A DNA stretch of 64,000 bases, from assembly GCA_903813345.2 (NCBI GenBank), contig CAIIXF020000009.1, forward strand, positions 25,332,740 to 25,396,739. Direction: 5' to 3'. Positions within the stretch are counted from its first letter, which is position 1, and each line of letters opens with the position of its first letter. The notes beneath the pieces were generated by a model. The model made no database searches, was not told where the DNA came from, and saw only the letters and a list, made by a program, of their open reading frames with translations. Below are positions 17,407 to 50,700 of this stretch, in pieces. The position numbers and the translations under genes are program-made. The stretch is from Owenia fusiformis. Its lineage: Eukaryota > Annelida > Polychaeta > Sabellida > Oweniidae.

Positions 17407-17434
17407 ATGGCATCATTCAACAACGTACTCTTTG
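17407..17434 (+). CDS. Mesothelin-like exon 1: start codon
   Basis: ATG then ASFNNVLFG, ending G|GTAAGA in phase 1. Chosen because with exon 2 it gives a convincing signal peptide in frame. Confidence 0.65.
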
Positions 17435-20400
17435 GTAAGACATCATATTCTTATATTTGATTATGCCTACTAAAATGCAATTAGTTGACATACGATTTTA
17501 GTTATAATTGATCATTGTAGGTGGCATCTCACAGATTCGGGATATATATAGTGCCTTATTACCTTTTATAGGTTTACAATACTCCCTGTTTTGCAAAAAT
17601 ACATAACAACTGAAAACTGAATTTATTTATGCTTTATAAGTATTACATAATATTATGTAATACTAATAATTATTTAAGCATTATTATGCTAAATAATAAC
17701 AATAATATTGCCAAAAAATATTGAAGATCATAAAGATGAACCATTTGTAACTGATGTGTAAAGACTTTATATTGACAACCAAGTCCAAATTACACATTTT
17801 AGATCAACAGAAAACGATATATGTTTTGTATCTTTTAAGGTCTGATCACAGTGAGCTTGTTTGCTGTCAACGATGCTCAACTTAGTCGTGAGTGTTTATG
17901 ATATAATTTCCCTATCATTTTTACTTTTCAACAACAATTTTTTATCTCTTTTGGGGATGTTGGACTTGGAGCTCGTCATCTGATATATGGCAAGTCTAAT
18001 GAAAGGTTATCGTTAACAAATTGTAGGCCAATAAAATGGATGTAATAATTTCATTTTATATAGTAAATCGATTGATTCAATTATACAAAGTCTCCTTATG
18101 ACATAAGATAAAAAGGGGGGTGTATTTCTTGATTTACATCATCAAAAATGCAGTAAAATGTCATATTTGGAATCTACATGTAAAAGAACATCTAGGAATG
18201 TGGCTTTGAAAAGAGTTTATCGACTATGGAAATTTCGTCAATTTTGGCACACTTTTGTTTGACTTAGACTGTCTTTAACAATCAAATCTCATTTTGCGTT
18301 TGCCTTGCGAACTTCAAAGACTCGAGTCCAATCAAAATTGAATTACACATGAAAGTTTGTGAAGTACTTTGTTTCCGAAATTGTTTTCAATACTTATTAT
18401 TTCCCAGGTGACTGTTTTACAAAATTATTGTGCATTGACTAACAATCAAGTCTCATTTTGCCTTTACTTCAAAGACTGAGTCCAATCAAAAATGAATTAT
18501 CTATACATGAAAGTTTGTGAAGTCCTTTGTTTCGGAAATTGTTTTTAATACGTAACTTATTATTTCCCAGGTGACTGTTTCACAAAATTATTGAGCATTG
18601 TGAATGATCACTATCTCCTGATAGTGTTATGTGTATATGTTTTCCCCACCAAAGGAAGAGGTGCGATTATTGGCAAATATCCCCATGGTCAAAATGAATC
18701 ATTCTTAGGTGTAACATGAAGAATAGAATGTCATTGTCAGTGCTTGGGTACACATACGCTGAGATAGGGTCATTCCGTTCAGTATGGTTGTATTGACTTA
18801 CATAGGGCTGTGCACCATTGACTTAACATGAGGTTATCATCAGATCTCAATAGAGGCCGTTGGATTCCATTGATTATCACAGAAATACCAAAAATACAAC
18901 TATGACCTGAATCGATTGCAAACATAATAATTTCACAATGACACAAATTGTTCATCTCATCAAATGTGCAAATATGAAGTTTGCAATCGATTCAGGTCAT
19001 ACTTTAATTTAAAAGATTGTACATTTTTTTCATTATTTTTCCCCTACAAAATAGCTGTAGAAAAAGTCTCCAAAAACAACTTTTACACCTATCAAATATC
19101 ATAAAACTTTGTAAAACCAAAGATTATAATGTTATATTTCATTATTTAGTATCATATTTGGATAAGATGTAGGGATGCGTAGGATGCAAATGGATTTTGA
19201 TAGACACAAAATATACGTCCTGGTTTGGAATCTACACCTCTACACTTCATGATGAATTCATTTTTAATGGGGAGATCATAATGGCGAGCGCATTACTTCC
19301 TTTTATTTTCAAAGAACACATGATGAATCTTTTATTCCACATTTTCAATTTTGCATCAATTATCTTTAAAGGATTTTTCCCCTGTGAAGGATTCTATTGA
19401 CATTTATATAATTCATGGAAAAGTAAGTCATATTAAGAAACAGGTACACTAACACTGAGTTCCACCCATTCCACGTTTGTGTTAATCTTGAATATCTTTA
19501 TGGCATAAGTGTTTTGATCAAAGTAGGTTGTGAAATCACTAAAGAGAAGTCATGAATCTTATTCCATAAATACCATAAAATTATGTGTGATCACAGAATT
19601 TCTGAACACAATCGGATGTACCCGAATGGTGTCTTATTCATAATGCAATAAATGGAATCATTTGTGGTCTGTATGTGCAGTCTATTTGCCTTATGATAAT
19701 ACATTTACTGTAGTACATTGGTTCTCCTAATATTATTTCCTTATAGATATCCAAACTCTAATCAACAGCAGTTTCAAAATTATCGTATATTGTATTTCAC
19801 CTGAAAAAATATTGTATATGGTATAAGAGAGCTGAAAAATATTGTTTATGGATTTCCAACACTCCCTATACCCCCCCCCCCCACATAAAAGAGGTAAAGA
19901 GATGTACACGTGTAGATTTTTAAAATGCAAATAATGACATCTGACTCACCAAGATCAATCAAAAAGGGCAGATCAAAATTAGATAAAATAAACAGGCAGC
20001 AATTTTGCGACAGAATCATAATATTCTGATAGTCAAACCCACAGATTCAAAGAGTAGTTAAAAATCCTAATGATGCCTTGAATTAAATTTGAAAGGAGAT
20101 CAGGATTCTGTTTTTGCGAATGGAGATCGTATGGAAGGTGAGACTGTAACGGATCCTTACCAAACCACAATGGGTGGTGAGTACTATGGCGATGATGAGA
20201 TGGTATGGGGCTCTATGATTCCTCCAACGGATGAAGATCCTTTTGCCGAACTGGTAAACATACGACTGCTTTTCGATTTGTCAAATGAGAATTAAAATTG
20301 ATATAACCACTTAGAACTACTAATCTGACATAGTCTAACTACCTATTTATATCAACCTATCAGTCCGAAATTATAAAATATTAATATTGAAAAATCGATA

Positions 20401-23400
20401 AAGCCCTCTTAGCCCGGATGAAGCAATAGATAAAGAAAATAATACTGAATAACATTTGGTCATCTTGCATAGAACACAATCCGTACCTCCTCATAAATTG
20501 GTTTAGAGAACCCTTTTGTTCCGTTTCAGAAAATGGAGATAAAGAAGTTACGTGCAAGATTTGGTGTGGTGCCAGACGCTATCCGCAAAATGGTAAAACG
20601 ATGGACTGATGAAATGCAAAATGAAGAGATGAAGAATGTCAATCGGATATGTAAGGAGATAAAGATACGAATGGAAACTCTCCAGAACAGTGAACCTGAG
20701 CAAATTGGTGAAAGTACAAGTTACATGGCTGATATAAACACGATGGCTCCTGATGTATTGCAAAACCATACAAGGAGAGTTTTGAAAAGGTAAATCTGAA
20801 ATTCCATCGTGTGTTTATATAAATTACAGAGTGGCCCATAAAATGTAAACTCTGGTCATAGATTCTCTTCGAATTTCGTTGTGTGGCTAAAAAATTCCGA
20901 TGGAACAGACAGTGGTATACTTATGTTGCTTCTACGACTTAGGATTTAGAGACATGACATTTTCTGTTTAGGTACTTGTTGATCTAGTGTCCGATTGTTC
21001 ACAAACGAGAATAGTAATCCGTCTTTTCAAATCTTATTATGTTTTTTCAGGTTTGCCTGCTTTTTGGAAGATAAGAGTCCTTGTTTTTCATTGGTTGACC
21101 GTGTTGGAATTATGACAGAATTATTTGCGAACAAAACTTGTTTTGACCCAAACGCTCCATTCGAACCAGAGCAAACACCTCGAACCCAAAAGGTGAGTTT
21201 TGTATCTCCCATGTGTATATATATAACGAAGTAGAATTATCATTTTAAACGATTTCGAAATTCTGCAATAATATTGCTAGTAAGGTGACCTTCTTTACCT
21301 AATGCTATATAAATACATAGTCACTATGTGAAATAGAAACGGAAAAATGCTCAATGTGCAACATTTGTTTTATTTGAAGGTATCAGAAGTTGGGTATCGA
21401 TTGGCCTGTGATTTGGAACAAATTCAGGATGTGAAACACCTTCAGCATAATATTATTAAACTTGGAAGTATGCTTTGTGAAATGCCTCAAAAGAAAGTTC
21501 TCGAGCTTTTTAACAGGCTAGATATTAACGATTCATCGACATTCATTACGCAATTCAATTTGAGTAGGCTCTGTGCTCCTGTAGTAAGTCATATATGATA
21601 AAAATTTTGAATAATTTAGATGTGTAATTTTGAAAAATTGGTAAAACCTCACAATGGCAAAATCAAGTTACCACCATATCATTTTATCGCAAAGTCTCAC
21701 TATTTAAGGAACAAGACTTAAATCGGATTGAGCGAGCAAGCTAAACAAAAACTGTTTCTTGTTAAGAATAATTTTGGCTCATGTCATCATTCCATGTCAT
21801 ATGTCTATTTTGTGAAATCCCCAAAGTGCATAAAGATTTTTGCAATAATGTATTTTTCTATGATCATGGTTACCATTTTTATAATTTGGAAGAATTTAAA
21901 CATTCCCTCCCCTGCCCATTTTTGCACTTTGGATCCTTAATAACTTCACCAATCTATAACATGTTACGGATCTTTGGGAGATATTGGATTTAAGAATATA
22001 TATTAGGAATATGTTAGAAGGTCAACTGTACATGTTGCTTGCAATTTTGTCAACCCTATAGATTTGATTATGTCTTTAACTTTAGGTAGTATATGGAACA
22101 GTATTCACAACAAAGTTATTTAACTTTTTCTTTTCAGTGCAAGATACTGAAAGATCTACTTATGGAGGTAGGCGCCAATTATTCACAACACTATGTAGTA
22201 TATGGTTTTAGTTTAGTGGGACTCTATATGGTTTTCTTTACAAAGGATGGGTATCGATATGGTGAACATTTTGAACACACGTTTCTCTTAAACCAGTCAT
22301 CAAAAAATTCTGAAATTTTTACACATCGTCAATTTAATGGTCATCTAATGTTTTCAATAATTGGTTTAAAAGAAAAACATTGTTGAATTCAGTTCACCAT
22401 ATCGATACCAATCCTTTCCAATCTTACACTATTTTGAATATATAATATGATACGATACGATACAATACGATACAACAAAATGCAATACTATACATTTACA
22501 ATACGATAAGATACGATACGATATAAAACAATAACAATTACAATTACTGATTTTAAATCTCATCTCGTTCTTTTATGATGTTTCTTCACTTCAGTCCAGA
22601 GATCTGACGACACTTCAACCAGATGTGATGAGGGAGCTCCCTCGATCGTGCGTACGCATCGTAGCAGATACCAGAATCAGGACAAGAGAAGGAAGTGCAC
22701 CCTTCCAAGCAAGAATGGAGGCAAAGAACACTATATGTGGTGTGCCTCAAATGGCACCAAGTCGCAACCTGAGGGGACGGCGTTCAAAAAGTTCATTAAA
22801 AGCAATGGGACTTCTTAAGCAGGTATTTAAAACATAATTTACTTTTCCCAAAATGCCTCGATGATACAGTACTTACCTATTCTGTTTACAATAGAATTTT
22901 TAAAAAAAACTAAGTAGTGTATAAAAATTTTGAGCTCCACATTTAAAATTATCGAAATCGTTGCCAATCGTCTCTTGTATTGAATGTTTTTCAGGACCTA
23001 CTGAAAGGGGCCACGAGCAAAGATGTGGCTTGTGCGGTTGATGAAATGGCTGCAGAACTCTCAAGAAGAGATGTCACAAATCTGGATACCAATTTCCTTG
23101 CAGATCTCCCATTTGAGAAAAGGAGAAGAGCGTTTGCGAAATCACTAAGATCAGTGGTAGAGTTCTCCTTACAATTAACGTAGACGTATATTTTATTTTT
23201 TTCCTCCTACCTCATACCCACCTACCCACGTACGTGGGACATGATACAGTCTTTGAAGGGTTCAATTTTAAAGATCTTAGTTTATTAAATCTTAGTTTAT
23301 GATGAATTATAGATGCATTTGTAAGGACCCTTGATAGCAAGTTGCTACTACATCCCAGCTGGGTTCAATTCCCACTCGGGGCGTCGAATTTAGCACACTT

Positions 23401-26400
23401 TCTTTCTTTCTGGTCATTACACATTAAAATGCATCGATATGCCTTTAGTTATTGATCTGTCATCTGTCTAGTCATAAAATAAAGCCGGAATTGTAGAAAT
23501 GTTAATAATTTGAGCTATTTTAAGATTTAATAATCTTTAAAATTGAACCCTTCAATGACTGTATCATGTTCCACGTAGGGGGGTAGGTGGGTATGAGGTA
23601 GGAGGTTTTTTATACAAAGCCATTTTCAAAGACTAATGTTTGTAGTTTCTTCCTTCTTTGTCTCATTGATTTTTTTATCTCTTTTTAGAAACTTGCAGTA
23701 AAGAAAGTGATAATTGATGCCGATGCTGTAGAAAACCGAACGATGTGGTGTGACTTCGACAATATCCCAGCACATCTACTGTGTGTCATGACACCAAAGG
23801 ATTTGAAAAAATGCGGATTGTGTAATGATAGACCGTACAAATATCAAGATCCTAGGTGGACTGTCCATACAATATCTAAATTTTGTCAGAGCGATTGCAC
23901 GGATAGACGATTGGTAGGGTTCTATTTACTGTACAACGTATTGTTGAACAATAATAGTCCACCGAATCAATAACTAGATAATTTGGGATGTTATGTAAAG
24001 GTTTCATGAACAAATATTAAAAAGCTTTGAAATAAGAGCATTTTCTGCGAATTTATTGAATGACTAGGTATTTTCTGTTATGAAAAGATTTAAAAAACAT
24101 TTTTGCACTTTTTAACCAGATTCTTTCATATAATTTCTTTTTAAATAATTTTAAAATTAAAATCTACTGTATTTCTAGACCCCCGTTGGGTTGTTTAAGG
24201 AAGCAAACGTTTGCTTCTACGAAGCAATCCAAGGAGAGTTTTACCATAGAATTTCCCATGAATGTTGTACAGCGTCTTTTTGGTATGCAAAAAACAATGA
24301 AATGGGTATCTAAAATTAGATTTTCCCCAAATGCAACTGTTTACAAATAAATGCATTAATTTTTTATATTTTTTAAATAGCTACATAATCTCACTGAAAT
24401 AGCAATTCGGGCTATTATGGATCCTACATACAACACTTTTGCGTTTGACGATGACATTGTGGATAACATGACATGCATCACTTACAGATTTTCGTAAGTA
24501 TTGTTTGCGATCAACCATATTGCTTGCTTTTAAATCGATGTTTTGATTGAAGTTGTTTGGTTTGTTTTGAAATACCTTTTCATCAATTCATTCCTTAGAT
24601 AGAATGTAGGTAATAAAAATGTAATGTGTCATTTTCATAATTTTATGTTCATGCTTCAGTGAATTTCGAAGGAATAATGACGTCGTCGAATGTTCGTCAA
24701 ATTGCGAGAATATTTTTCATAACGTCACATGTCATTGTTTCCTGTGAAACGGGAGTGTGCACCAATAGCGTACTTATAGTAAGATGATTTTGGAAAAAAT
24801 GGTAAATTTGAAGCAAGTTGAAAAAAGACCTTTTTGACCATTTTTGACCTTGAAAAGGTCACTGAAGGTCACATTATTTAACCTTGAAAATGGCATTGAA
24901 TGTCAAAACTATAGTCAGATTTGAACTTTTGAGAACTTGTAGATAATTTTTTTGAAAAATGGTCAATTTGAAGCAAGTTGAAAAACTACCTTTTTTGACC
25001 TTGAGAGGGTCATTGAAGGACAAATCTCAAATCTAAAGTCAGATTTGAACTTCTGATAACTGATTGCTTGTAGATGATTTTGAAAAAGAAGATTGGTCAA
25101 AAAATTGAAGTCAGTCTAAACAGTATTTGTTAAGTTATTGGAAGTTGTAAGAATTTGTTACAGACGGCAACCGCCAACCACCAACCGCCAACCACCAACT
25201 GCCGTCAAAAAACGGAGACCGCCACAATATATCACCACTTTTTGGTGGTGAAATAATAAAAATGCAATTACACTTTTGATAATTCTTAATTTTAGGCCAG
25301 ATATTGTAAGACCGATGATTGGAAATGGCTGGTGGCAATGTGAAAAGAAGAGGATTTGGAAGAAATTCGTTGCATCAGGGATTGCTGAGAGAATGGACTG
25401 TGATTTGGTCAACAAGTGGTTACATGCAATCTCAGAAGAGGAAGTAAATAATGTGACCTGTAATATGGATACCGGTGACTATAACACTTACCCAAACGAT
25501 CCTCATCCATATAACACCAAACCCGATGTTGTATTCATTTATAATAATACCGAAACAACGACCACTGGCGATCAATCTGACTTCGTCGGCAGAGGAAAAC
25601 GTGAAGTCGAAGAAATCTACAATGACGACACCGATAAATACGATAAAGATGAATTCATGCGAAAGATGCAAGGATTGAGATTGAAATGTACGCCTGAAGA
25701 TAGCCTCGGTGACCTGTTGGATGATGATCCGTTAGACCATCTCGAAGAATTGGAAGAAAGATTAGTTACTCCGGAGAATAGACAGAGAATTGCAGAGAAA
25801 ATCACAAACTACACCCTTCATAATAACATGTATGCCTACTAATGATCATATTAAAAAGATTAACATATGTGTATAGTAATATATGTTCCTTATATATCCA
25901 TAGCATGCATTCCATACCGTTAAAAAGCAAAGTCACAAAATAAACGTTACTCAAGGTAATTTAGTTTATCCAAAAATTAACTGAACTTTTTTATGTGTTT
26001 TTGCTTTGTAGATCTGAAATTGTTGATTTGGATATTGCAAAGGCCGGTTCTATCGTCTGCGAGTCACCCAATATCATTGAGCTGTTCCTTAATGACGCGA
26101 CGGGAAAGGTAAGTCATAAATCTTAATCAGGCCTAGATTGGTTTAACAAACCAGAGCATCAATGGAGATTTGCCCCAAGTTTTTTAAAACGTCATGGAAA
26201 ATTATTAAACTTTTCACTGAATTCAAACATGTTTTTAAAAAGCTATACGGAAACTCCTCTATTGTAGCGGAATATTGCAAAAGCGTACAAGTCGCTGATG
26301 AAGAAAATCAACCGATACTTCCATAAGATTTGTCACGATTTGAACGAGTGCAATAAATATACCATCTGTAAAGAATCCCTTCGTCCTGTACGCCAAGAGT

Positions 26401-29400
26401 TGATCCGGACTCGTCAAAGACAGAGGAGAGAAATGACTTGTGATTCGATGATGCCAATAGGTGACAGTATAGCCACTACCAATTCAACTTCAAGCAACGC
26501 TACAGATGCTGAAAAGGGAAAAAGGCGTAAAAGGGAAACAGGTAAAATTAAATAAACATTTAGAGAATGATATTCGATTAACAAGCAAAGCAGATCTAAT
26601 ATATCAGATCCACCTGCCTGGCCGTTTTTGTTTTTAGGGTGCTGGTGAAATTAAGTTGCAAGTTGCTGCAAAAATAAGTGTAATTTAGACTCCCCAAATC
26701 AGTTTGTGTAAGACCTGAACATACTCCAGCTCAATTGGGATTAATCGATAAACTAAAACTTAATATATAGTTGAAAACAGTTGTCCTTGCACATAGAAAC
26801 TACCATCATTGAAAAACGTTTCTTTTTTATTTAGAAAATATCATAACGTTTGATGATGTGGAATTGGACAGTGACGAAATTAAGACAGCGTACACCGTTG
26901 CTGAAATCGAAAGCATAACAGATCTGATTCCACAACTGACCTCAGAATCTCTCACAAGTATGTTTGAAAGTCTTGGAGCCCCGTGTGGATATTCCGATGA
27001 GCAGCTCGGTGCATTCAATGAGTCTGTAACGCTAGCTTTGGATGTAAGAGAACACTTTATGGGGTCAAATCCATGGAGGGCGGGGGGTTAAAAAGCAATC
27101 AAAATATATAGATTTTATTTTCAGACAAAACTAACAACACTTGTTGGATGCCTCTCACTATAGTATTGCTTTGAATCACTAATGCTACGTTTGAATTGTC
27201 ATTTTGGTTGCATTTGGCCTTATCAAATTTGACCTTTTTAATAAAAAAAAGATAGCTTTGTCCCAAAATTGACATGGCAATAATTTTTAAATTGTGTATG
27301 ATTTTGTTTTGCATTGATCACCCTTTATCTTAAAGAGGTTTGTGGGAGAAGGCGTCGATGTGGACCTGGCTATTTTTGGTAGCCTCCTTCAAGGTTTGGA
27401 CCCAATGGGAGTGAAAGAACAATACATGTCCGAGGCCCAGGGAACTGATATGTATTTCCCGTATGGACAATGCCCCTGGCCAGAAAGCAGACAAGATATG
27501 GTACGATATGGTTTATTTTATGTATGTGGTTTAAGACACGCCATCGGGTTAACCCAAATAATTGTTATAACATGCGTTTTCCCCATACAAACGATCTGTC
27601 TTCCAGAGAAAACTAAGATTTGTGAACATGTTTTGCTATCATTCAATCATACCCCAGTATGTTCTCTGTCAGTCAAAAAAGTTTGAATCAAAACTCCCCA
27701 CGAAAATCAAAAGATCGCACCTTTTGAAGACGCCATCTATAGAAAATGTCAAAAAATGTTTAAAGAAAATGCACCTTAATCACATCAAATCATGTCTTAG
27801 AGTTGGTCCATACATACACTTTTTCATCCATGTACTTACCAAAATCCAACCACTGGTGATGCTAATGTAATTACAATAATTGGACTATATTTTTGTTTTT
27901 ATGCCATCTATTCGTCTTCCCGTGTCTCCATCACATGTTTTGATTGGTTGACAATACTTCACTTTAGTATCTCGTCACCTCAAACTAAAATATTAAGTTA
28001 AAATTGACTGTTCAAATAATATAATCCATTATTATAGAAACTTCGCTGACAACAAATTTATTTCGAATTCATGACCTATTTAGGAATTCACTGGAAGATC
28101 AGAATGATCATAATGGCCATTGATGAATGTATTGATTGAAACCTCTCACTTTTCAGGCCGTGGTTGTTCACAATCTTTACACAGAGGCAACTGGCGGCTC
28201 TCTAGATAGTGTTGATTTGACTGCGATGGGCACGCTGGTCTGTGTTCTCGATACCAGTACGATTGACCCAGTTGAAATATAGTAAGTACCGTATTTGAAA
28301 TCGGAAATTAAATTGATAAATCTCCTCAACATTTTAAAGTTAATTCACTTCTTAGCTTATTGATATGTTTGAGACTTGATCCATCCATGGGAAGAGTCGA
28401 CTACGCGATGCGAATACTTTAGAATGCACCCTCAATAATATGGGAAGAAGAAATTTAAGATTAAGAAAATACATTTTGGTCTTCGAGAGCCTTTTTCACA
28501 TATATTGGTAGCTCCGAATTTCAATATTGCTTTAATATTAGGCCAATCAAATGGTGATGCCTATTAAAGCCTATTATAATTCCAGCGATGCGAGAATTGA
28601 GTATAATAGAATATTGCTGGAGTGATGATGATGTGAAAAACCTTCTCGACATTATCCTGGAACATAAGGGTGTCGAGACGGTGTTTGACCTACCAGCTGA
28701 AGATGTGGCTGATTTGGGATTGTGGACAGGTAGATCTCATTTTCTGTAGGAATATTTTACTTGAATTATAGTACGTTGGTGTGCAATCAGACACAGTAAC
28801 TCATCATAGCATTATCAAAATTAAAATGTAGTTTTCAATCCCAGAGTTCACATGTCGTTTCTCGAGCGAAGTCAAACTGGAAGTGCTGATTTCAAAATAA
28901 AGTTTAACATACTTAACATAATGTGGACTGGTCTTGATGTTCATCATGTTTTGGCTTTCAGAATCTGAGGCAGTCAAAACCCAGGAGAGTATGATATCAG
29001 ATAGCACGGATGCAGATGTGCTTCATGAATATGTGCGGTTGGTAGAGCAGGTATGGCCATTTTATTCTATTCCCTGATAAAGAACATTTGATTTTTCATC
29101 TTATATATTCATCTGTGACTTTATGCTTTTGTTGGATTACGAATCATTCATTTCATTCATAGATTCGAAATTTATTTGACTAATTATTTCAATAATGATG
29201 GAGGAGTAATATTCATTTGCATTTTTTCTGTTTTTGGAACATGATCAATTGAAAGTTCTTGAGGTAAAAAGATGAAATATTTTAACTTATATCCATATGA
29301 CTTCGTCAGTTGAAGCGGGTCGTGAAATGGATACTGGACGTTTCTGCTTGGGATCGTCCCAAATGTGATGGTAAATTTAACCCTTCTATCACTGTTCATC

Positions 29401-32400
29401 AATGGAGCTAGTTGGTGAATCTTTATCACCTCTTTGATCTTCCTTTCATGGAAATTGTCCACATTATCAAGATCCCTAACATTGTGCCAGTCATTTTTAT
29501 CTTCTCCCAACGCCATCTCTATATTCAAGTAATTGGCTAGAGAATCGAGTAAGTCATTTCCAGCAGATAGATGAAGATAAGATGACGTATTTTATTGTTT
29601 TCAGCATGAACGCTGTGACGAGCACCCATTACTCAATGACTGCGGAGTTACATTGACCATAACCCCACCTGATGAAACAGATACTGACCAGATTGAAACT
29701 GAAGAGACTACAACTAACGAGACTGCAACTGAAAAGACTGAAACTGACGAAACTACAACTGAGGAGACTGCAACAGACGAGACTGATACTGACAAGACCG
29801 GAACTGACGAGACTAAAACTGACGAGACTGACGAGACTAAAACTGGCGGGACTGAGACCGACGAGACTGCAACTGGCGAGACTGCAACTGATGAGATTGA
29901 AACTGGCTCGACTGCATCTGGTGAAACTCAAACTGACGAGACTGAAACTGACGAAACTGGATCTGGTGAAACTCAAACTAACGAGACTACATCTGGAGAC
30001 ACTCCAACCGACGAGACTATAACTAATGAAACTGCATCAGGTGAGACTCACACTGACGATACTCAAATTGACGAGACTACATCTAGTGTGACTCAAACTG
30101 ACGAGACAACATCTAGTGTGACTGAAACTGACGAGACTGAGACTGAAGTGATTCAAACTGACAAAACTGAAACTGATAAGACTCAGACTGACAAGACTGA
30201 AACTGATAAAACTCAGACGGACGAGACTAAAACTGACAAGACAACATCTGGTGAAACTAAAACGCAGGAGACTAGCACTCGGAAGACTCCAAGTGAGGGA
30301 ACTGGGGAGATTGGAACAAAAGAGCCTGCAAAAGTTGAGTGTCCGAAACCCGACGCGTTTTCAGTAGAGAATCTCAGGGACATATCATGCGATGAAATCG
30401 CATCGATCAGTCCACTTATTAACAGTTGTGTTGACTTGAACTTCATGCGAGCTGAGTGTGTAAGTATGAACCACGTAGGAACTAAAATACGCGAAACTGA
30501 TTTTCTTTCCTTTGAACATAACCAGATCCAAATTTTTCTTCAATAAGTAAAGAACTTACACGGAGACATATAAACCATTTATATGTCTCTGACTTACATG
30601 ATAATAGCATTATGCCCGAGTCACATTTCCTCCCCGATTGAGTATTTTGTTCGAAATTGTATTCAGTTTTGAACAAAAAAACGAATCGGAGCAAAAATGA
30701 CTCGGGCGTTGATTATATTCTAGATCACGACGAACCTATTAGCGATACTGGCCGAAAGTGATTTGAACGAGAACCACAAAGTTGCAATGAAAGGCAAATT
30801 AAAGGCAAAGATAGAACAACTACAAGCGAGTGAAGAACCTACTGATGATAATTTTCATTTCGTTAAAGCGTAAGCAAACGGATACATATGAACATGGCGA
30901 GATAGAAACTTCCATTCGAGCCATGATACCATGATACAATATCGTCAAAAGCATTCTTTTTGTTGCATTCTTGCATGTTTCTTGCTTAAGATGCATTGGT
31001 GCATATTTTGAATTTATCTTTCCAGACAATAATAGCTTTACTGACACCGCAAATGATAAAATACTTATTTTTTCCAATGATACATTACATTTTGTATGTC
31101 TGTTGGAGTTTTGCTTACATTCGGAGGAGCTTAATTGACAATATGTAATAAAGATATGCATTCATTTATTTTGATTAGAAGGCAAAACAAAATATTGATA
31201 ATTATTCACTATATATCCAGTCAATTTAGTTCCAGTAATTTACTTTGAAACATATTTTTCCACAGTGCATTTGCTTATTTGGATGATGTTGAACTGAACG
31301 ATGTCTTCTTACGTGGGGTTTTGGCGTTTGTTACCGAAGATCATGATTATTGGGTAAGTCTGACCATAAACAATCAAAAATTTATTGGTACCATGACAAC
31401 ACTGTCGCTATTTAATCACAAAAAATAAAACATGATAATACAGTAAAATATGTGTGAGTGGAACACCTTTCCTACGTCAAAAATAATTGCCTGGGAAGTG
31501 CTCAACTTTCAAGTCTATTTTACATTAACGGGTAAGACATGACTCAAAAGTGTTCCACTTGTGGAAGAGTTCCACTTTACAAGTTGTACTGTACTCTTTA
31601 AATCACAGTAATGCTACAAAGATTAAGTAACTGATAGGATTGTGCTTGATTGAAGTATCTCTAATATGTAATAGGGGGAAATAACCATGATCAATCATAA
31701 TTTGAGTGACGAGAGCACCTCAAAGATCTATTGTAGTATCGATATGTCTGTACATATAATATAGATATCCAATCACTCATAGAAGTTCTCAATATATAAA
31801 TATACTACTGCTGTAAATACCAACAAATCTTATGACAAAAATTATACTATTTTCTTTTTGCAGGCTGAGAAATTGCAGTTCAAAATAGCTGCTTATTTAA
31901 AAAGCAGCAGTTGCGAAAATGCAGAAGAAATGCGGGGTTGTGTAAAGGAATTAAGACGATTTATGTGTCATATTTCTACGACAACGGCTGAGAAAGTGGA
32001 CAACCTTCTTACTTGGGATGAGGAAACATTGAAGGAAATTACTGACCCTTGTTTCCCATCACTTTTGGTAAATAATTTTAAGGGATGGAAAAACATCCTA
32101 AACGAAATGAAGTGAACTGTTATCAGATGTACTAGCTTAACGTTCTAATATCAAAAAAATTAAAAATTAGTCAACACCTCTGTACATTACATTTGTGATT
32201 TCCCGAGTCTTTGAACATATTATCTTCCCTTTTCTCTTCTTTTCCGTGTCATCAAAATTTTAAATAGTAAATGCTTATGATAAATATTTCATAATTACTT
32301 TATATGAAAAGCGAGTGTTTTTGTCGTTGATCATTTTGCCATTTCTTTCAGGAGAATCGCATAGCCCAAGTTAAGTTGGAGGTATGTTATCGATTTAGTT

Positions 32401-35400
32401 CAACATTTATACTGAAATATTGTTATTCGGCAAAAGAGTATCTTGTCAAGAGCAATACAGGAACTTTGCACATATCTGTTTTAGTTATTTAGTATATTGC
32501 GTTCTTTAGCTCATTGGAGGGGTTGAGAATCTAAAAGCGGATGATATGACTGATGAAACGCTTGTAAAAGGTGTACTACGTGTTTCTACATTCGAAAGTC
32601 TTGCAAATGTGGATGTTAGTGTTGCTACTGCTCTGCTTGTAACTCTTAAACCAAAGAAAATAGCAGCGGCTGATAACTCGGAATTAACTGGGTCTACAAG
32701 TATAGCGTATGTTGAAGAACCGAAAAGAGCTTCACCTGAGGAACTCGCCCTCACGCAAGTGGTAGGTCTATGTAAACTGGGACTTAAATCAATGCCCATG
32801 TATACGGAATAACGCAGACAGAGCCAAGGGCAAATGACCATGAGTGTTGTTATTGCTATTATTGCACAGTAGCTACATTATTACTGTCCTGTAAAAAAAT
32901 ATGTTAATTGATACTATGGGAATGTATGACTCGCCCATTTTACTATTCGAGAATTAACTATCACAAAATAGTCGTAACAATAGATAAAACACTGATATCG
33001 GTAGATGAGTAAACAATTTGCGAATTAAGAATTTGTATAAATTGCATTTACTTTAGTTTGACATACAATCAATATTTTACAGCTAATAGAGTCTACAGGT
33101 GGTATTGAAAACTGTAATGAAGAAGTCTTGGATATGTTGTTCCAAACAAATCTAAGTCCCGATGAGATCGACAAAGCGCCTGCTGATATCAAATGTAACA
33201 TGGAGAAACCATACACATCAATGGACAAAAAGACGGTGAGTGGTCTAAACGTTAAGACCAATGCGTGTTGACAGTCGGCATATATATGACCATAGGTTTA
33301 CACACTGTCCAGGACATTCAGGCTTGGATGACTGTGCCTAGCTTGGGTGTCAGCGCCGTAGACTGCTTGGTCAAATCTGAAAACACCCCCAAAAACCCGT
33401 GTAGCATCAATGAAGTTGACAGGGCTAAGCACAATTGTCAAGAAAGATAAACATTGAATACAGAAAGACAACGCTGAAATGTCTCATTTTGTTCTTCCAG
33501 ATACCAACATTTGTGAGAAGTTGTATGAGAGTTTGGCAAAAATTTGCTTTTGCAACAATGGAGAAGTATGGTAGGGGTGTAGTCGGAGTTACCAGGGAAG
33601 ATTTTGGGAATATTCCTAATGACAAAAACATATGGGATGTTATGGGATTTGTTAAACAATATGGAAACGAACTAGATGATATCCAAGTAAGTTGTTAACA
33701 GTTCAAAGTGTAAGCCTTTTCAATGAAATCTTGCATTTTCTCATTTCATTTAATCTTTCCAATTATTGTTCAATACGTCCTAAGGATAACTTTAAGCATG
33801 AGTTTTAAATGGAGATGATTAATTTTGGCTATTTTAGAGGTCTGGCGTGAAAGAAGCAATCCAACCAAGACTAGATACAGGCATATCTAAAATTGAAGAA
33901 ATCGAAAGTGTAATTTGGTTGAAGACTTTATTTGGGTAAGTTTTGTTTTGGGGCTTTCATTCCAACAATCATTCAATTTATTTTTAAGTTTTTCACTTGA
34001 TCACTCAGTTGTTATATATTGTGCAACATAGACTTTATTCTTTTGATTTTGCAGATCTGATGAATTAAAACAATTTTCCCCAGAGGTTCAAAAGCATGTT
34101 CTTAAATCTGCGTTCCCAACAAACCACTGCTTCACACCAAGAGATAAAGCTCGACAACTACTCGCAATGAGTATTCAGGTTGGGACAAAACTACAGTAAA
34201 ATAGTTGACTATTTTACTGTAGTTTTGAACTAATTGGATAAATTGACACATCAAAAGCATTCGATAACATTACCTCTGGATTGAATAATGATTTACTATT
34301 CTAGCATTCCTTGTATTGCATCATAACATTAACAGATGTAGTAAAAGCTACTTATGGTTGCTTGATTGAGCTACTATTACATAAATAAATAGACTCTTAT
34401 TCTGTAAGAGTTCTACAAGGTTCAATTCTTGCCGTCTTATCTTTTAATTGTATTCTGATCAATTGTTATCTAATTAATATATTTCTTTTATAGCTTGGTA
34501 TATCCGTTTGTGAAATGGATACACAGGCTTTGTCGGTGATGACATCTGATGACTTAGCAATGCTGATTAAACGTGACACCGATGACTTGAAAAGATGTAT
34601 ATTTCAAATTGACAAACATTCACAAATACAGAACATCCAGTCGGATATTTGTGGTTTTGTCAAGGAAAACTTTGGGTTGGCATACATACAGTATTTTGAA
34701 CCAAAATAGTTTAACCCTTATCCTTCCATCCTTCAATTTTGATTAAAATGGTGAAAGTGCAATTTTGCCCCTTTCTGAAAGCTTGAAATTAACGTAGTTT
34801 AATTTTACCAATATCGTCAACATATTATTCAAATTCAGAAAAAGTATTTAGAAATATCTGATAACTTTTGTTACCTTCAGTTATGACACTGGATTCTCCA
34901 CTCTATCCCAAGAACATGCAGGGCTAATGAAGCATATCATAACATATTGTGGTTTGGACTCGGCCCCAGCAGTGAGACATGTTATACAATCTTCATTTTA
35001 GATGTTACCTTTCCAATAGTTTGATTTTTTACCTCATCTAACCTGAGACTAACAAAAAATGATTTTTTTTTATTTTATGATGGTCTCAGATCTAACTCAT
35101 GTACGGGATCTTGACACTGAGTTTTTTAGATGTGCCATGATTAAGTATGTGGCTTCTATATGAGGGTGGTGTTTGGAATGATCCAATACCCAACCACCAC
35201 ATTTAGGGATGTATTTGCTTGCCTAATTTTCGGGCATCCATCGACCACAGCGATATTGGAGCCCTGTGATCGGAGGATGATTTTTGGGGTGTTTTTGAAA
35301 GCTACGTTTAGACTTATAGATGAAGCTTTGGCGTTTGAAGCACTTTCGTTTTGTCGCTTTTAATTTTGTGTTCTAAGAACGTAAATCAAACATCTTAAAA

Positions 35401-38400
35401 ATGAAAAGTTTGTGTGTATAAAACGCATTTTATTTATTAGATGATTGGTGTATTGCATTTTTCAATTTCTCCTCATTATTCCGATTTTAAAATAGATGAG
35501 TTTTATTGGATGTCTTTTAAATTATTTGATTAAAACAATGAATTTACAACAGCACAGAACCATCTCCTAATTGCCGAGTATCATATGATCTTGATGAAAG
35601 CCACCATTATGGAAAGGAAAAGGCAATATATGAAGAACACAAATTTGGACAAAAGTCTGAACTATATCAAAATGTAAAATGTATATGAATAAAGTACAAA
35701 AAATATGTTTTGAGAACACAATATAATAAATATTGATCTCTGAATGTAGGATATAATGGCCGCTGAACTGTCCGCTCTTGCCACTATATGGGAGGAACAG
35801 GACGCGCTGGCCAACTGTAGGAAAGCTAATGGACTGGACTTGAAGAATATTATAACAGAGACAGAAGTTGTCAAGAAAGAAGCCAGAAAGAACCTATTTG
35901 CAAAGTTGACCGCGTCTGGTGGAAACAGACGGAAAAGAGGTGTGATGTAAAACTGTGTTCGTTGGTAGAAATTGTACAACTCATTCTCTTCCTTTACATT
36001 ACTTGTTTTGTTTATCAGTAGAAGCAATTTCCCACTTGGATCAATTTATTTTTAACGGACTTATTAATGGCATTTCCAGCATTGGTTGAAATAACGTGTG
36101 AATTGCTCCATACACTCGGCTCGACCACTGCAGACGTATTAACATCCAGCCAACTGTCTGGACTTGCCAAGGACGAGTTCACTGATTGTGCAACAATGTT
36201 AGGCAAGCTTAAAACATTTGACCAATCCCAATGGTCTTCGCTTGCCAACTTGGCTGTAAAGGTATTTGTATATTTTATGAATCTTTTGTGTGTTTAATCA
36301 TAGAGATCAAATTGTTGACAACCTCCTCATCGTCGATGGACTTGGTGGGATCTTTTCAGGCACGGTTTGCTAGCCTCCGTGCTAAATAGTGTCATGTCGG
36401 CATGTTAATGCGTCATTATCGATCTCTGAATCGGCGCGCATAATGAGCCTGTAGCCTCGTTCAAGCTAAAAAATATCACTTGGATGGTAACTTCTTTTTT
36501 TGTAGCATTGGGGCAATGTTGACTCTTGGGATAGGAATAAGATTAACGACCTACGTGGTATCGTTTCTGGTCTCTCTGTAGATAACATTAAAAAACTTCA
36601 ACTAACAACTATTGATGTTGCTAGTGCTATTGGTAACCATGGCAACTGGGATGACGCAGCGAAGGTTGGTTGTGTTTTAGAAAAATGTATTAGATACTGG
36701 TTTTTAAAGCCCAACAGACGGAAATATGAACATTTTTTCCACTGAATTTGTCGTTTTTGTGAAGGCGGCTTGTATATCATTTGAAAACCTTATCCTCAGT
36801 AATATATTTTGGTATAAGCAAAATTATTTTTAAAGCATGTCAACTGTATCATGGACCTCAATGACAGAATATAACATATCTTACGTTGAAACTTGTAAAT
36901 CGTAATTTTAGATTTACTGAACAAATATTGATATTACATTAAGCTTATGCGTTTGACAACGTTCTCAATGCTTTTCTATTCTACTTTATGATGGACTTCT
37001 GTTTACAGCTTACAGCGGCGTTTAATGAATGGTTAAAGGATTCCAAGAGTAATGATCTTACAACTATTACTGGGAATGAATTGAGGTTGATTGGAGAACT
37101 CGTGTGTGGAGCTTCAACTGATCAAATTACACAGATTCCACAAAATGCCTATATGTATGAAATTACATTTTTTAAACCATTGCATCTATTGTGATTCTCT
37201 CCATCCCAATAATTTAGTTGAACTATTCTGATGAATTATCACAATTGCCTTGTTGGTTTGTGTAGTTCAAAAACACTTTTTAACAAATGACTTGCAAATG
37301 AATGAAGCTATGAACTTCATTTGTAAACTTTAGGACTGCAGTTAAGGAGGTTGGTGCTGCTAGAACGTGTATTGGTCAACAATGGACGCACTACGCACAA
37401 AAGGCTCTAGCTGGGTATGGAGCAGATACCTCTTCATGGACTCTGGACAAGACGAAACTTATTGGAAATGTGATTGGTATGTCCGTTGGTAAAATAAAAA
37501 AGCGTGAATTTAGAAACTAGCCATTCTCTGATTCTGCATTTTTAAATACCTCTTTACTTATCCAATGATTAAAGACAATAAAATGACTTTTAAATAAAGA
37601 GGGCAGTCAAAGAGAGAAAGGTTAATAGGATTCTACCACTGCTGCCACCTTTATATCGGCACAAAACCTATATGCTTCTAGATAAATTTAATTATGAAAA
37701 GGGACGTATTCTATTATCAGTTTTGATGATTCGATTCAGGTGGGCTGCCAAAGGACAACATCAAACAGATGACGAGAGCGCAGATTCAACAGATTACTCC
37801 CGCAACAATTACGAAAATCCCAAACATCAACTTTTGTGTAAGTGGGTCAACTAAACAGCCTCTAGCATATACACAAGTATCAGAGCAGCTTATGATCTTG
37901 TATTTATCATTATCCAATTGGACTATATGGTCAGATATACCAAAACCTATTGATCCACATGACCAATTGTGACATAAAAAGGAATATCGGTCCTTAAAAC
38001 CAAATGAACCACACTTAAATATCACTTACTTAATAAAATACATAGTAATGAAATAAAAGTTGAAATGGGGAAATGATAATATCTTGTGGTTCATAAGCAG
38101 TCTTAATAGTGTCTTATGCCATTGTTTTTGTTTCAAATTCACCATCATATTACAGGGATTCACTGCTGAACAATTTGCGTGGTTCTCTGTCAACCAGGCA
38201 TCTAGTGTTACCATGGGCCAACTGGCTGGTCTTGAGAAGGACCAAAGTGATGCTTTGAAAGAGGTTATGGCTGAGGTGAACGACTACTATTATTATTATG
38301 ACTCCGATGATGATGAAGGAAACAAAGGAGGGAATTCTAGTATGTTCATTATATATATTACATATATTATATAATATATACATGTAAGTTAGGAACCATT

Positions 38401-40323: not shown

Positions 40324-42000
40324 AGCTCACACGGTGAGCTTTTGCAATCACTCACTTGTCCGTCTGTCTGTCTGTCCGTCTGTTAAATATTAATATGGGT
40401 ATTTCCTATAATTAATATATACTGGATTTTAACTTACCAAATATGACTTCAATATTAATATGGGTTTAAACCTATAATGTATTAAATACTGGATATGACA
40501 AGTAAATAAAATCAATTATAATCTACCTATATGATGTAGATATCCAAATGTTGGTCTGAATTTATCTTTGTGGAAAGATTGTATGCTTCAGTTGCTCTAT
40601 AACAAAACATGTGGGACAGTGTATCTATATATTACAAGATGTCCGTCTGTCCGTCCGTCCGTCAACAATAGTGGCACGTTTTAAAATCTCTGTCGATAGG
40701 ATTTCCGTTTTACGTTATTTCTGTTCAACATCAATACAAAAAACTCCACTATGACTCCTGGTTCAAAAGCTCGCGTATTTTCAAGATGGCCGCCATTTTT
40801 GTCTCGCGAAATTCATTTTGACCCATTTCCTAGCTTTACAAATAATGTCAGGTGTCCTGCATTGTTAAAGTCCATGTCAATGTGAAGAGTAGTTATATCA
40901 AATAATTTTGTTACAAAAAATCAGCAAAAAATTATATCCATTTTTTTATTTTCAGCCATTTTAGTTAACATTGATTTGTCCAACTGACTCGCGAAATCCA
41001 CTTTTCCGTCAACAATAGTGGCACGTTTTAAAACCTCTGTCTATAGGATCACCGTTTTAAGTTATTCCTGTTCAACATCAATACAGAAAACTCCCCTATG
41101 ACTCCTGGTTCAAAGGCTCGCCTATTATCAAAATGGCCGCCATTTTTGTCTCACAAACTTTTGACCCATTTCCTAGCTTTACAAATAATTTCCGGTGTCC
41201 TGCATTGTAAAAATCCATGTCAATGTAAAGATTAGTTGTATGAAATAATTTTCTTACAAAAATTCAGCAAAAAATGATATCCATTTTTTTTATTTTCAGC
41301 CATTTTAGTTAACATTGATTTGACCATCTGTCTCGCGAAATCCACTTTTGAACCAAACCTCCGTCGATAGGATTCCCGTTTTAAGTTATTTTTGTTCAAC
41401 ATTAATACAAAAAAACTCCCCTATGACTGCGGGTTCAAAAATTCGCCTTTTCAAAATGGCTGCCATTTTTGTTTCGCGAAATTCACTTTTGGCCCATTTC
41501 CCAGCTTTACAAATAATTCCAAGTGTCCTGCATTGTAAAAAGCCATTTCACTCTGAAGAGAAGTTGTATGAAATAATTTTGTTACAAAAATCGGCAAAAA
41601 TCATGTCCTTTTTTTATTTTCAGCCATTTTAGTTAACATTGATTTGTCCATCTGTCTCTCAGTCAGTCCAAAATAGTGGCAAGTTTTAAAACCTCTGTCT
41701 GTCAACACTAGGCTTTTTGTTCAACATCAATAAAGAAAAAAAACCTGTGACTCCTGCTTCAAATTCTCGCCTATTTTCAAATTGGCAACCATTTTTGTCT
41801 CGGAAAATTCACCTTTGGCCCATTTCCTAGCTTTACAAATAAGTTCAGGTGTCCTGCATTGTAAAAAGCCATGTCTTTGTAAAGAGTAGTTGTATGAAAT
41901 AATTTTGTTACAAAAAATCGGCAAAAAATCATATCCGTTTTTTTTTATTTTCACTTTTGACCAACACCATGTGAGCCTAGTACCCACGGTACTAATTTTT
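40324..42000. mobile_element. Composite element of four roughly 340-bp tandem units
   Basis: Begins with the foldback AGCTCACACGGTGAGCT and a GTCC/GTCT microsatellite. Units from about 40655, 41005, 41345 and 41660 share CCTCTGTC...AGGAT, AAAATGGCCGCCATTTTTGT, CATTTCCTAGCTTTACAAAT and TTTTAGTTAACATTGATTTG. Ends near the hairpin AGTACCCACGGTACT. Superfamily not assigned. Confidence 0.75.
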
Positions 42001-47700: not shown

Positions 47701-50700
47701 AGAAAAAAACAAGAACTGTCCATAAGTGTAATAGAGAAAAGGTTTTTGCCATATGATGACCAGGCCTGGTAGAATCACTTCCACATAGGGAGTGTAGGAC
47801 AAAGTTAACTTTTGAACATGAAGAAAATGTATTTTGTTTCTCTGATTTACTTGAAGATTTATGTCTAGATTCATTGCTATATCATCAACCTTATATCTAG
47901 TTTATATCAATCTCAGATATTTTATAATCTTGAGAATTTGATTTTTATAATTATCCATATGATGTATGTTTTTTCTATTCCAGCAATGTCTGAAGGTACT
48001 AGACGTAGTGCTTTGCTATAGCTACCTTCCGCCTGCATCGTTGTTCCATTTTATCACATGTCTTTGTAGAACAGTGAATGTGGAGAAATTTTGTCAGCCA
48101 AGTTGGACGGTGAGTACTATTCATTTCAGGATTTGACATGAACATTAACATATTCACACTGACGTATACTATGTTGCATCCTGACTAACATTTTCACAGT
48201 GATTTATACTTATTAGTTGTTATCCCAACGAACGAAGTTCGTTAGGGATATAGTGAAGCCCTCCGTCCGTCCGTCCGTCCGTCCGTCCGTCCGTCCGTCC
48301 GTCCGTCCGTCCGTCCGTCCGTCCGTCCGTCCGTCCGTCCGTCCGTCCGTCCGTCCGTCCGTCCGTCCGTCCGTCAGTCTGTCAGTCAGTCCGTCCGTCC
48401 GTCCGTCCGTCTGTCCGGAAGATAACTCAAATACTAGTAGACAGATTTTCTTCATATTTAGTGGAAAGATGTATATTGATGAATGGTTTTACGCAAAAAA
48501 TAAATTTTTCAAGATGGCCGCCGCTTTAAAAATGACGGGACTTTTTCGCAAAAATCATAAATTTTTCATTCTAAACCAAAGTAATTTATATTATTGTTTG
48601 AAATTCTGGTAGTGTATTCACAACATTTATCTATTTCACATATATTCCGTGTTTTTCATCCTGACCCCCAGGGGCCATGTATGGGGGGACAGGAAAACAG
48701 AAATTTTCGCTAATTTTTAGATCTTTCTGAAGTATAGCTTTATTATACTCAAATGAAAGGCAATTAAGAGTGGATTGCAAATATTGTATCTTTTTTCTGA
48801 TTCGAGCCTCGTAAAATTCAAAATGGCCGTCTAATCTACGATTTCGCAATAATTTTTCGATCCCTTCAAAGTATGGCTATATTATACTCAAATTGAAGGA
48901 ATTTTGGAGTAGATCACAATTATGGTATTATTTTTCAGATTTGTACCTCAGAAAATTCAAAATGGCTGCTTTGCAGGAATTCGCGATTCTAAAATCTAAT
49001 TTTTTCATTTTCAACCAAAGTAATGAGTATAATTGATTGGAATTCGGTAATTGATATTTTGTTCGTTGGGATTTGCTACTCCGCGGAGTTGCCGTTATCT
49101 AGTTAATATTGATGTACCTTTATTAACTTTTTCACACTGATTCATATTATACTGATTTATATTATAGTATACTCAGATTGTCATTCACACTTACTCGAAT
49201 TGTCTTTAGTTTTGTTTGTTTTATAGATGTAAATCTGCAAGTACACATTAAACAACACATGTATTTCATTAGGAGGGGTCTTAAATTTGTCATTGATCAT
49301 CATTAATATATAAAAATGATCAAAAGAGCAGAAAATACTGTTTACTAAAGATAGAACATATTATGATAGTCTTAATTCTTTGAGATTGTTTACATTTTCA
49401 GTTGATGAGAAAACTCCTTGGAACTCACTTAGGGCATAGCGGGGTCTACTCCATGTGCTGTATATTGCAAGATCAGTAAGTTAGCCCATAGCCATTTGAT
49501 TTGGTTTAAAAATATCATGTTCATGTATACTTACATATTATGTGCTATCAATATTTAAAGCAAAATCTATATGTAAAAATGATCGAATTTACATGAAACT
49601 CCTTTTTGATGAATTTTAAAATTACAATTGTCAATGCAACAATTGAAAGTCATTCAAATATCCTTGAATTTAAAAATTGAACACCCATGTTTACTGCATT
49701 TCCTGTATGATTCAGGAACCACCTGGGAGATTATACATTACTCAGAGGGGCTGTCTTCTTCATTGGAATGGCACTCTGGGGCTCAATGAAAGTAAAGTCA
49801 TTAAAACATACCCCAGCTTCTGTGCTGCCATCTTTTCTTAAGGTAAATCTTTGATACTTTATTTCTATGTTTTAAGGTAAGTGATGTAATGTTGTACTCC
49901 CTTTAAGGGCATACCAGTCTCAATTTGAATGTGTAATGTCAGGGGCATAGCCAGCTTTCAGTCAGGGGGGTGTGATCACCAAAATTTTTTTGTTTTTTAG
50001 TCAGTGGGGTGTGATCGTAGCATAAGCAACCCAAAAAAGATGGAGATTTGTTTTGAATTTTACAAAAATTGATGTAACTTCCTTCAAAATTGAGCTACAA
50101 GCTTCAAATGAAAAGCATTTAAAAGCTCTTTCCTTCCTTTTCTTCCTCTATCTGTTAAATGGTTATATTTTCATTAGTTATAGGGGGGGAGGGGTGCGAT
50201 CACACGCCCTCCTGGCTACGCCTATGAGTGTTATTGGTCCCAAATAGGTGAAATAAGTGTTCTGCACGGTAACTTTTGCTTTTGTTAACACATTTGTATG
50301 TATGTTTAATTGCAGTCGATGGATTCTAAACATGATGTTGTAGCCTATGAAGTTGTTCTCTCCACACAGCGACTTGTGAAGAAATATGGCAAAGATCTCC
50401 CCTATGGAACTTGGGATCAAATTTTTGAAATTGTAAAATCTCTCATACAACATGTAGAGGTATAGAATTTTTGTTTTGAATATTACAGTTGAATTGTAAT
50501 TTTAGAACTCTATAATTATGTATCTTTTGTATTAAAATATATCATTTGAATTGTTTGCTACAATTCTTCAAGGAAAATTCTTTCATACTTAATTTCATCA
50601 AAATCAAATAATTAGAATATTTGAGTAGAGTGAGTGCAGCTCTTTGCCGTAAAGATTTCAGGCCTCTATAAAAACAGGATTATGACAACATCATATTATT

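Follow-up and report, generated by a model that had tools for sequence, protein, structure and literature searches.

An Owenia fusiformis gene resembling mesothelin, predicted to contain two halves with matching exon structure

We analyzed a 64,000-nucleotide stretch of the Owenia fusiformis genome (GenBank assembly GCA_903813345.2, contig CAIIXF020000009.1, positions 25,332,740 to 25,396,739 of the forward strand; 34% G+C), hereafter called the window, and a mesothelin-like gene within it. The gene probably encodes a secreted relative of the mesothelin precursor, likely held by a glycosylphosphatidylinositol (GPI) anchor, whose two homologous halves would have arisen by tandem duplication, inside the gene, of a unit of ~16 exons. 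In the predicted gene model, the paired intron phases and exon lengths of the halves agree above chance, as a twofold tandem duplication would have it.

Genes were predicted with a small gene finder of our own, which used generic splice-site weights and was given no repeat information. Unaided, it assembled 41 plus-strand exons into a single frame of 6870 bases whose translation is hydrophobic at both termini. The edited model (the edits are given below) has 39 plus-strand exons at 17407-38702 and encodes about 2274 amino acids; its frame fails at one place, the junction of exons 17 and 18. A tblastn search of the window with this protein, at E up to 1, gave no match beyond the gene itself. 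The predicted exons are as follows.

Exons 1-2: 17407-17434 and 17840-17887, plus strand; start codon and a hydrophobic N-terminus, signal-peptide-like by eye in the translation.
Exon 3: 20096-20253, plus strand; phase 1-0, acidic segment, weak acceptor (-2.4).
Exon 4: 20530-20789, plus strand; phase 0-2, 260 bp, opens half 1, partner of exon 21.
Module A1, exons 5-11: 21051-24493, plus strand; half 1, 1104 bp; exons 5-8 at 21051-21192, 21380-21583, 22138-22167 and 22595-22822, exons 9-11 at 22995-23156, 23689-23913 and 24381-24493.
Exon 12: 25296-25829, plus strand; phase 2-2, 534 bp, acidic insert and RGKR motif, partner of exons 29+30.
Module B1, exons 13-19: 26012-29050, plus strand; half 1, 1103 bp, RRKR near the end of exon 14; exons 13-16 at 26012-26108, 26268-26541, 26835-27043 and 27336-27500, exons 17-19 at 28157-28281, 28586-28729 and 28962-29050.
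Candidate 11-bp microexon: 28356-28366, plus strand; hypothetical, weak donor, would mend the frame between exons 17 and 18.
Exon 20: 29605-30459, plus strand; phase 0-0, 855 bp, linker rich in Thr, Glu and Asp.
Exon 21: 30724-30869, plus strand; phase 0-2, 146 bp, opens half 2.
Module A2, exons 22-28: 31266-33935, plus strand; half 2, 1011 bp, exons 25-28 align to human mesothelin; exons 22-25 at 31266-31353, 31864-32067, 32352-32381 and 32510-32761, exons 26-28 at 33083-33235, 33501-33686 and 33838-33935.
Exons 29-30: 34055-34178 and 34494-34675, plus strand; joint phase 2-2, 306 bp, partner of exon 12.
Module B2, exons 31-37: 34881-37837, plus strand; half 2, 1009 bp, exon 32 ends with RRKR and the mesothelin-like chain follows; exons 31-34 at 34881-34971, 35750-35939, 36080-36261 and 36506-36664, exons 35-37 at 37009-37154, 37334-37476 and 37740-37837.
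Exons 38-39: 38156-38339 and 38623-38702, plus strand; end of the mesothelin-like chain and a hydrophobic C-terminal tail, GPI-signal-like by eye.

The two seven-exon sums of a half are almost the same (1104 and 1103 bp for exons 5-11 and 13-19; 1011 and 1009 bp for exons 22-28 and 31-37), which may be chance. About 38 copies of a degenerate 15-bp tandem repeat (29683-30242) encode the linker of exon 20, between the halves, and a pair of ~90-bp inverted repeats (88% alike) lies at 23203-23605, in the intron that follows exon 9.

The exon list was aligned with itself by scoring incoming and outgoing phases together with length, merges being permitted. Without guidance, exons 4-19 aligned with exons 21-37 over 16 units, exon 12 being matched to exons 29 and 30 combined, with a score of 45.6. 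The paired lengths (half 1/half 2, in bp) were 260/146, 142/88, 204/204 and 30/30 for exons 4-7; 228/252, 162/153, 225/186 and 113/98 for exons 8-11; 534/306, 97/91, 274/190 and 209/182 for exons 12-15; and 165/159, 125/146, 144/143 and 89/98 for exons 16-19. None of 1000 exon shuffles and none of 1000 phase-and-length shuffles reached this score. With intron 17 set to phase 1 the score was 39.9 (0/1000 in each type of shuffle), and the unedited model gave 37.2, which was reached by 0/1000 exon shuffles and 1/1000 phase-and-length shuffles. Compared directly, half against half scored 45.6 vs. 14.1 ± 3.4 for random 17-exon lists (0/5000 reached it), whereas the two halves aligned to the exon list of the adjoining gene TSC2, as a control, scored 21.3 and 26.1. 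When phases were kept and lengths shuffled, 0/5000 lists reached 45.6, the maximum being 44.0. Over 16 pairs, exon lengths correlated at r = 0.93, or 0.86 when the two microexons were left out (0/20000 permutations), and paired intron phases were equal in 17 of 17 cases with exons 29 and 30 merged, or in 16 if intron 17 is taken as phase 1; 16 matches were reached by 2 of 200000 shuffles of one list. We also divided the gene into modules A1 (exons 4-12), B1 (13-19), A2 (21-30) and B2 (31-37) and compared their exon structures. Same-type modules stood out (A1-A2 and B1-B2, 0/400 each), whereas the cross-type comparisons A1-B1, A1-B2, B1-A2 and A2-B2 were at chance level, their scores being reached by 250, 265, 219 and 288 of 400 random lists. 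A first-pass annotation of this DNA had proposed four equal modules produced by two rounds of internal duplication; exon structure bears out one such round, exons 4-19 with 21-37, but neither the equality of the four modules nor an older second round.

Most of the exons on which that annotation was built were nonetheless recovered. Its span, 20530-37837, runs from the start of exon 4 to the end of exon 37; its trios 18-20 and 36-38 are exons 17-19 and 35-37 of our model, and its remaining exons were identified by length. The short phase 2-to-0 exons of 142, 97, 88 and 91 bp are exons 5, 13, 22 and 31; the series 204+30+228, 274+209 and 204+30+252 correspond to exons 6-8, 14-15 and 23-25; the 0-0 exons of 162, 165, 153 and 159 bp are exons 9, 16, 26 and 34; and a 204-bp exon followed by a 30-bp microexon recurs in order (6-7 and 23-24). 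In place of the fourth series, given as 192+240, the predictor returned 190+182 with phases 0-1 and 1-0, like the 274+209 of module 2, and with this reading both halves have a furin-type RRKR at the matching exon junction, a Cys following at +7 as in human mesothelin. The trio with phases 0-2, 2-1 and 1-0 was found at exons 35-37 (146, 143 and 98 bp; one edit needed) and is tentative at exons 17-19, since the frame is not kept from exon 17 to exon 18. There, the consensus-like donor of exon 17 (28281, GTAAGT) leads to phase 2, whereas exon 18 requires phase 1. Two changes would each mend the frame, use of a weak donor at 28256 or insertion of an 11-bp microexon (28356-28366, donor score -4.2); a microexon search at a donor cut-off of -2 gave 0 candidates; the mismatch in 28157-28729 could be caused by such a weak donor, by such a microexon or by an assembly error.

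RRKR occurs just twice in the protein, 3 residues ahead of exon 15 and 1 residue ahead of its partner, exon 33, and thus at the ends of exons 14 and 32; any RRKR at all was present in 70 of 5000 shuffled proteins. According to the available text of PMC10035497, mature human mesothelin spans E296-T600 (305 residues) with disulfides C302/C326 and C442/C468, and the available parts of PMC2628672 and PMC10035497 describe mesothelin as an ARM/HEAT solenoid that is processed by furin, carries a GPI anchor and binds a glycoprotein as partner. As in human mesothelin, a furin-type site, here RRKR, is followed by two candidate Cys pairs in the Owenia protein. Behind the second RRKR, Cys occur at +7, +37, +147, +175 and +243, compared with 7, 31, 147 and 173 in human mesothelin, so that the partners of the shared +7 and +147 positions fall at +37 and +175 vs. 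31 and 173. The chance of placing Cys exactly at +7 and +147 with five Cys is 0.0002, or 0.002 within one residue, for a coincidence that was noticed before it was computed. The C-terminal chain also resembled human mesothelin in local alignment (53 vs. 33.2 ± 4.4; reached by 0/300 shuffles with BLOSUM62 and by 1 and 3 of 300 with the other two matrices) and in global alignment (z of 4.1, 4.8 and 3.1; 2, 0 and 4 of 1000 shuffles). Module A2 aligned to mature mesothelin at 5, 1 and 0 of 300 shuffles in three matrices, and exons 25-28 aligned to the same part of mesothelin as the C-terminal chain (5, 0 and 0 of 500). The mesothelin peaks of 75 and 78 compare with 58 for the reversed protein, 55 for TSC2 and 64 for reversed TSC2. 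From the second RRKR to the end of exon 38 there are 305 residues, the end of exon 38 being no known anchor site; the hydrophobic N-terminus and C-terminal tail are visible by eye in the translation. Judged by sequence, the protein thus appears to be a distant relative of mesothelin; with human MSLN (PDB 7ued, 8cxc; PF06060) it shares the furin-type site, Cys +7/+147, the hydrophobic tail and a collinear alignment. Unlike human MSLN, it has about 2274 rather than 622 residues, two halves, a Thr/Glu-rich linker, a second RRKR and a fifth Cys (+243), and it gives no Pfam match. The label mesothelin given by the first-pass annotation stands in substance for the C-terminal module, by its similarity to the human protein, and not as a match to the Pfam Mesothelin family.

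The robustness of the exon borders was gauged with 24 predictor settings, 12 of them trained on the adjoining TSC2 gene. Exons 1, 4-8, 13-16, 18-19, 21-26, 28-29, 32 and 34 were recovered exactly in all 24 settings, exon 33 in 23, exons 2 and 3 in 22, exon 27 in 20, exon 12 in 19, exons 9, 30 and 31 in 18, exon 10 in 13, and exons 11, 20 and 35-39 in 12; the edited exon 17 was recovered in 0/24. At unit splice weight, the TSC2-trained predictor recovered 28, 31, 29 and 29 of the 39 exons, and these runs returned the shifted end of exon 35 and lost exons 36-39.

Protein sequence was then compared between the halves. Paired exons scored above random pairing with p of 0.043, 0.064, 0.014 and 0.087 in four matrices, pair 17/35 being the strongest or second strongest in each. 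Exons 8-10 aligned in register with exons 25-27 (10, 11 and 17 of 500 shuffles in three matrices), and exons 16-18 with 34-36 did so in one matrix (10/500; 132 and 163 of 500 in the other two). Exons 6 and 23, a pair with 68 residues in each member, were folded singly and showed four helices in like places, at H3-10, 18-33, 37-46 and 52-58 in exon 6, which had a further helix at 61-64, and at H2-14, 20-37, 39-48 and 53-58 in exon 23; the confidence was low (mean predicted local distance difference test scores of 57.6 and 66.7, respectively), and the support is accordingly weak. Cys pairs spaced 26-31 numbered 14, with 8.6 expected (p = 0.053). The statement of the first-pass annotation that weak sequence similarity agrees with the repeat is thus barely supported, the half-vs-half scores being marginal. 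Since the sequence support between the halves is marginal, the twofold claim rests on the predicted gene structure.

Several observations weigh against a duplicated mesothelin relative. The exon borders are predictions; the codon table of the gene finder started from 12 exons chosen by hand, with retraining on the finder's own predictions; and four edits were made when the pattern was already known, namely the removal of short exons 25164-25247 and 33313-33348 and shifts of the donors of exons 17 (phase 1 to 2) and 35 (phase unchanged). The TSC2 exon list aligned to itself gave a score reached by 29 of 1000 shuffles, and so the self-alignment test is somewhat generous. Between the halves, the rank test of paired vs. 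unpaired exon scores gave p = 0.128; whole half vs. half local alignment was reached by 28/300 shuffles; M1-M3 was at 8 and 9, and M2-M4 at 26 and 47, of 300 shuffles in two matrices; and in three-block groups, same-type pairs (A1-A2, B1-B2) had a mean z of 0.19 vs. 0.20 for cross-type pairs. The best module pair was cross-type, M1-M2 (2/300 with BLOSUM45, 11/300 with BLOSUM62), an alignment that was rejected as evidence for modules, being out of register (exons 6-10 vs. 13-16). Among the best 25 of 528 exon pairs by local alignment, one, 17~35, joined half to half, and the top two (6~13 and 14~38) lay outside any register. Identity in paired exons was 18% and 21%, hhalign with single modules and two-row profiles, including comparisons with mesothelin, gave probabilities of at most 3% (M1-M2, E 0.015), and no DNA similarity between the halves was found at E 0.01. 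Three more furin-type motifs (exons 8, 12 and 14) had no counterpart in half 2. Similarity to human mesothelin was at background in half 1 (B1: 120, 84 and 265; A1: 213, 81 and 120 of 1000 shuffles); A2 gave 3, 71 and 53 of 1000. A Pfam search at E up to 5 found PF06060 in none of four pieces (630, 364, 485 and 419 aa), while human mesothelin, as positive control, matched at 9e-183, and mesothelin was not among the PDB chains that phmmer returned for the C-terminal module (E up to 1). Considering these two results, we do not file the protein under PF06060. The same Pfam search gave two weak unrelated matches, the PDB search two unrelated chains (E 0.05 and 0.23), and an NCBIfam search with the C-terminal module no family.

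Some of these points would be expected if there had been no duplication at all, the exons of solenoid genes being alike in length and phase by tendency or the pattern being made by prediction: the borders are predicted, TSC2 scores against itself, and half-vs-half sequence support is marginal or absent. However, the halves score 45.6 against each other and 21.3 and 26.1 against TSC2, the predictor had no repeat input and still returned 28 to 31 of the 39 exons when trained on TSC2, the 204-bp exon and 30-bp microexon repeat in order, and RRKR stands at paired junctions, so that we consider this explanation improbable. Four equivalent modules produced by two rounds of duplication in the register of the first-pass annotation (a short 2-0 exon, 430-490 bp, then a 0-0 exon of ~160 bp) seem just as unlikely. 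It is true that such a pattern follows four of the five phase 2-0 exons (in the fourth case with 372 bp rather than 430-490), that any given 2-0 exon has a chance of 1.3-2.7% of being followed by the exact pattern, that the two module sums of a half almost coincide, and that cross-type sequence scores are no worse than same-type ones. Yet the pattern was drawn up after the data had been seen, it amounts to two independent instances rather than four because modules 3 and 4 repeat modules 1 and 2, the A-vs-B exon structures agree at chance (219-288 of 400), and the best A-B sequence agreement pairs exon 16 with exon 25, not 26.

That agreement, exons 16-17 with 25-26 (reached by 13, 6 and 25 of 500 shuffles, depending on the matrix), is the sole cross-type pairing that stands out, and its register is one exon off that of the first-pass annotation. 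It would fit an older common ancestor of A and B in a shifted register (8/25 ~ 16/34, 9/26 ~ 17/35, 10/27 ~ 18/36, 11/28 ~ 19/37) in which phases are no longer shared, as would the alignment of both exons 25-28 and 34-37 within human mesothelin residues 69-268. Against it, block c3 compared directly with c4 was at 242, 132 and 81, c1-c2 at 171, 183 and 75, and c1-c4 at 141, 198 and 270 of 500 shuffles, a profile of mesothelin plus two modules found nothing in half 1 (best -2.7 bits; one shuffle hit 3.8), and helical repeats within one solenoid can resemble each other without any module-level duplication. We therefore regard such an ancestor as a tenable possibility, albeit with less than even chances, and one that is compatible with the single tandem duplication that we favor.

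For that duplication, we propose that an ancestral unit of about sixteen exons encoded module A at the N-terminus and the mesothelin-like module B, with a furin-type site between them, and that this unit was tandemly duplicated inside the gene, the Thr/Glu-rich linker exon joining the copies. Since then, the protein sequences of the copies would have drifted to near background level, with the positions and phases of the introns retained. Each half may form an ARM/HEAT-like helical solenoid and, by analogy with mesothelin, would be cleaved by furin behind its RRKR; the C-terminal chain of about 305 residues would then be kept at the membrane and might bind partner (glyco)proteins as mesothelin does. 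Similar reasoning has been applied to bicycle genes, where, in the available text of PMC9168663, exon lengths and intron places outlive sequence similarity as evidence of homology; there, the comparison is between genes and species, whereas here it is between two halves of one gene. Otoancorin and stereocilin are larger members of the mesothelin superfamily with a predicted ARM-type superhelix and GPI anchor (PMC2628672, available part), and the main text of that paper, as far as available, does not contain the words exon, intron or duplicat-. Among the open-licence literature matches listed, none dealt with invertebrate mesothelin genes or with internal duplication in the mesothelin family, which is no proof of absence.

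The next plus-strand gene, predicted at 42713-63675, is TSC2 (tuberin), the predicted protein matching Pfam DUF3384 and Tuberin. A TCCG microsatellite of 39 copies (48262-48417) lies within it, and the predictor took this tract as part of an exon, probably wrongly; a 326-bp tandem repeat of 3.7 copies (40717-41953) separates it from the mesothelin-like gene. Human TSC2 lies in 16p13.3. Since human MSLN maps to the same band (PMC10035497, available text) and the mesothelin-like gene adjoins TSC2 in the window, linkage of MSLN and TSC2 may be old.

A further extension of the proposal is that the A-furin-B unit of sixteen exons was ancestral to the mesothelin superfamily, so that the gene would encode a double precursor in which two furin sites free a soluble middle solenoid while the mesothelin chain stays on the membrane, and the same phases would tie the otoancorin, stereocilin and mesothelin genes together in a way that sequence does not allow; this we consider rather doubtful. 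If the twofold reading is true, intron phases would record an internal duplication that is nearly invisible to protein comparison, a mesothelin-like gene, matching in its furin-type site and its Cys geometry, would be placed beside TSC2 in O. fusiformis, and module A, furin site and module B together would provide a testable unit for the origin of mesothelin, otoancorin and stereocilin.

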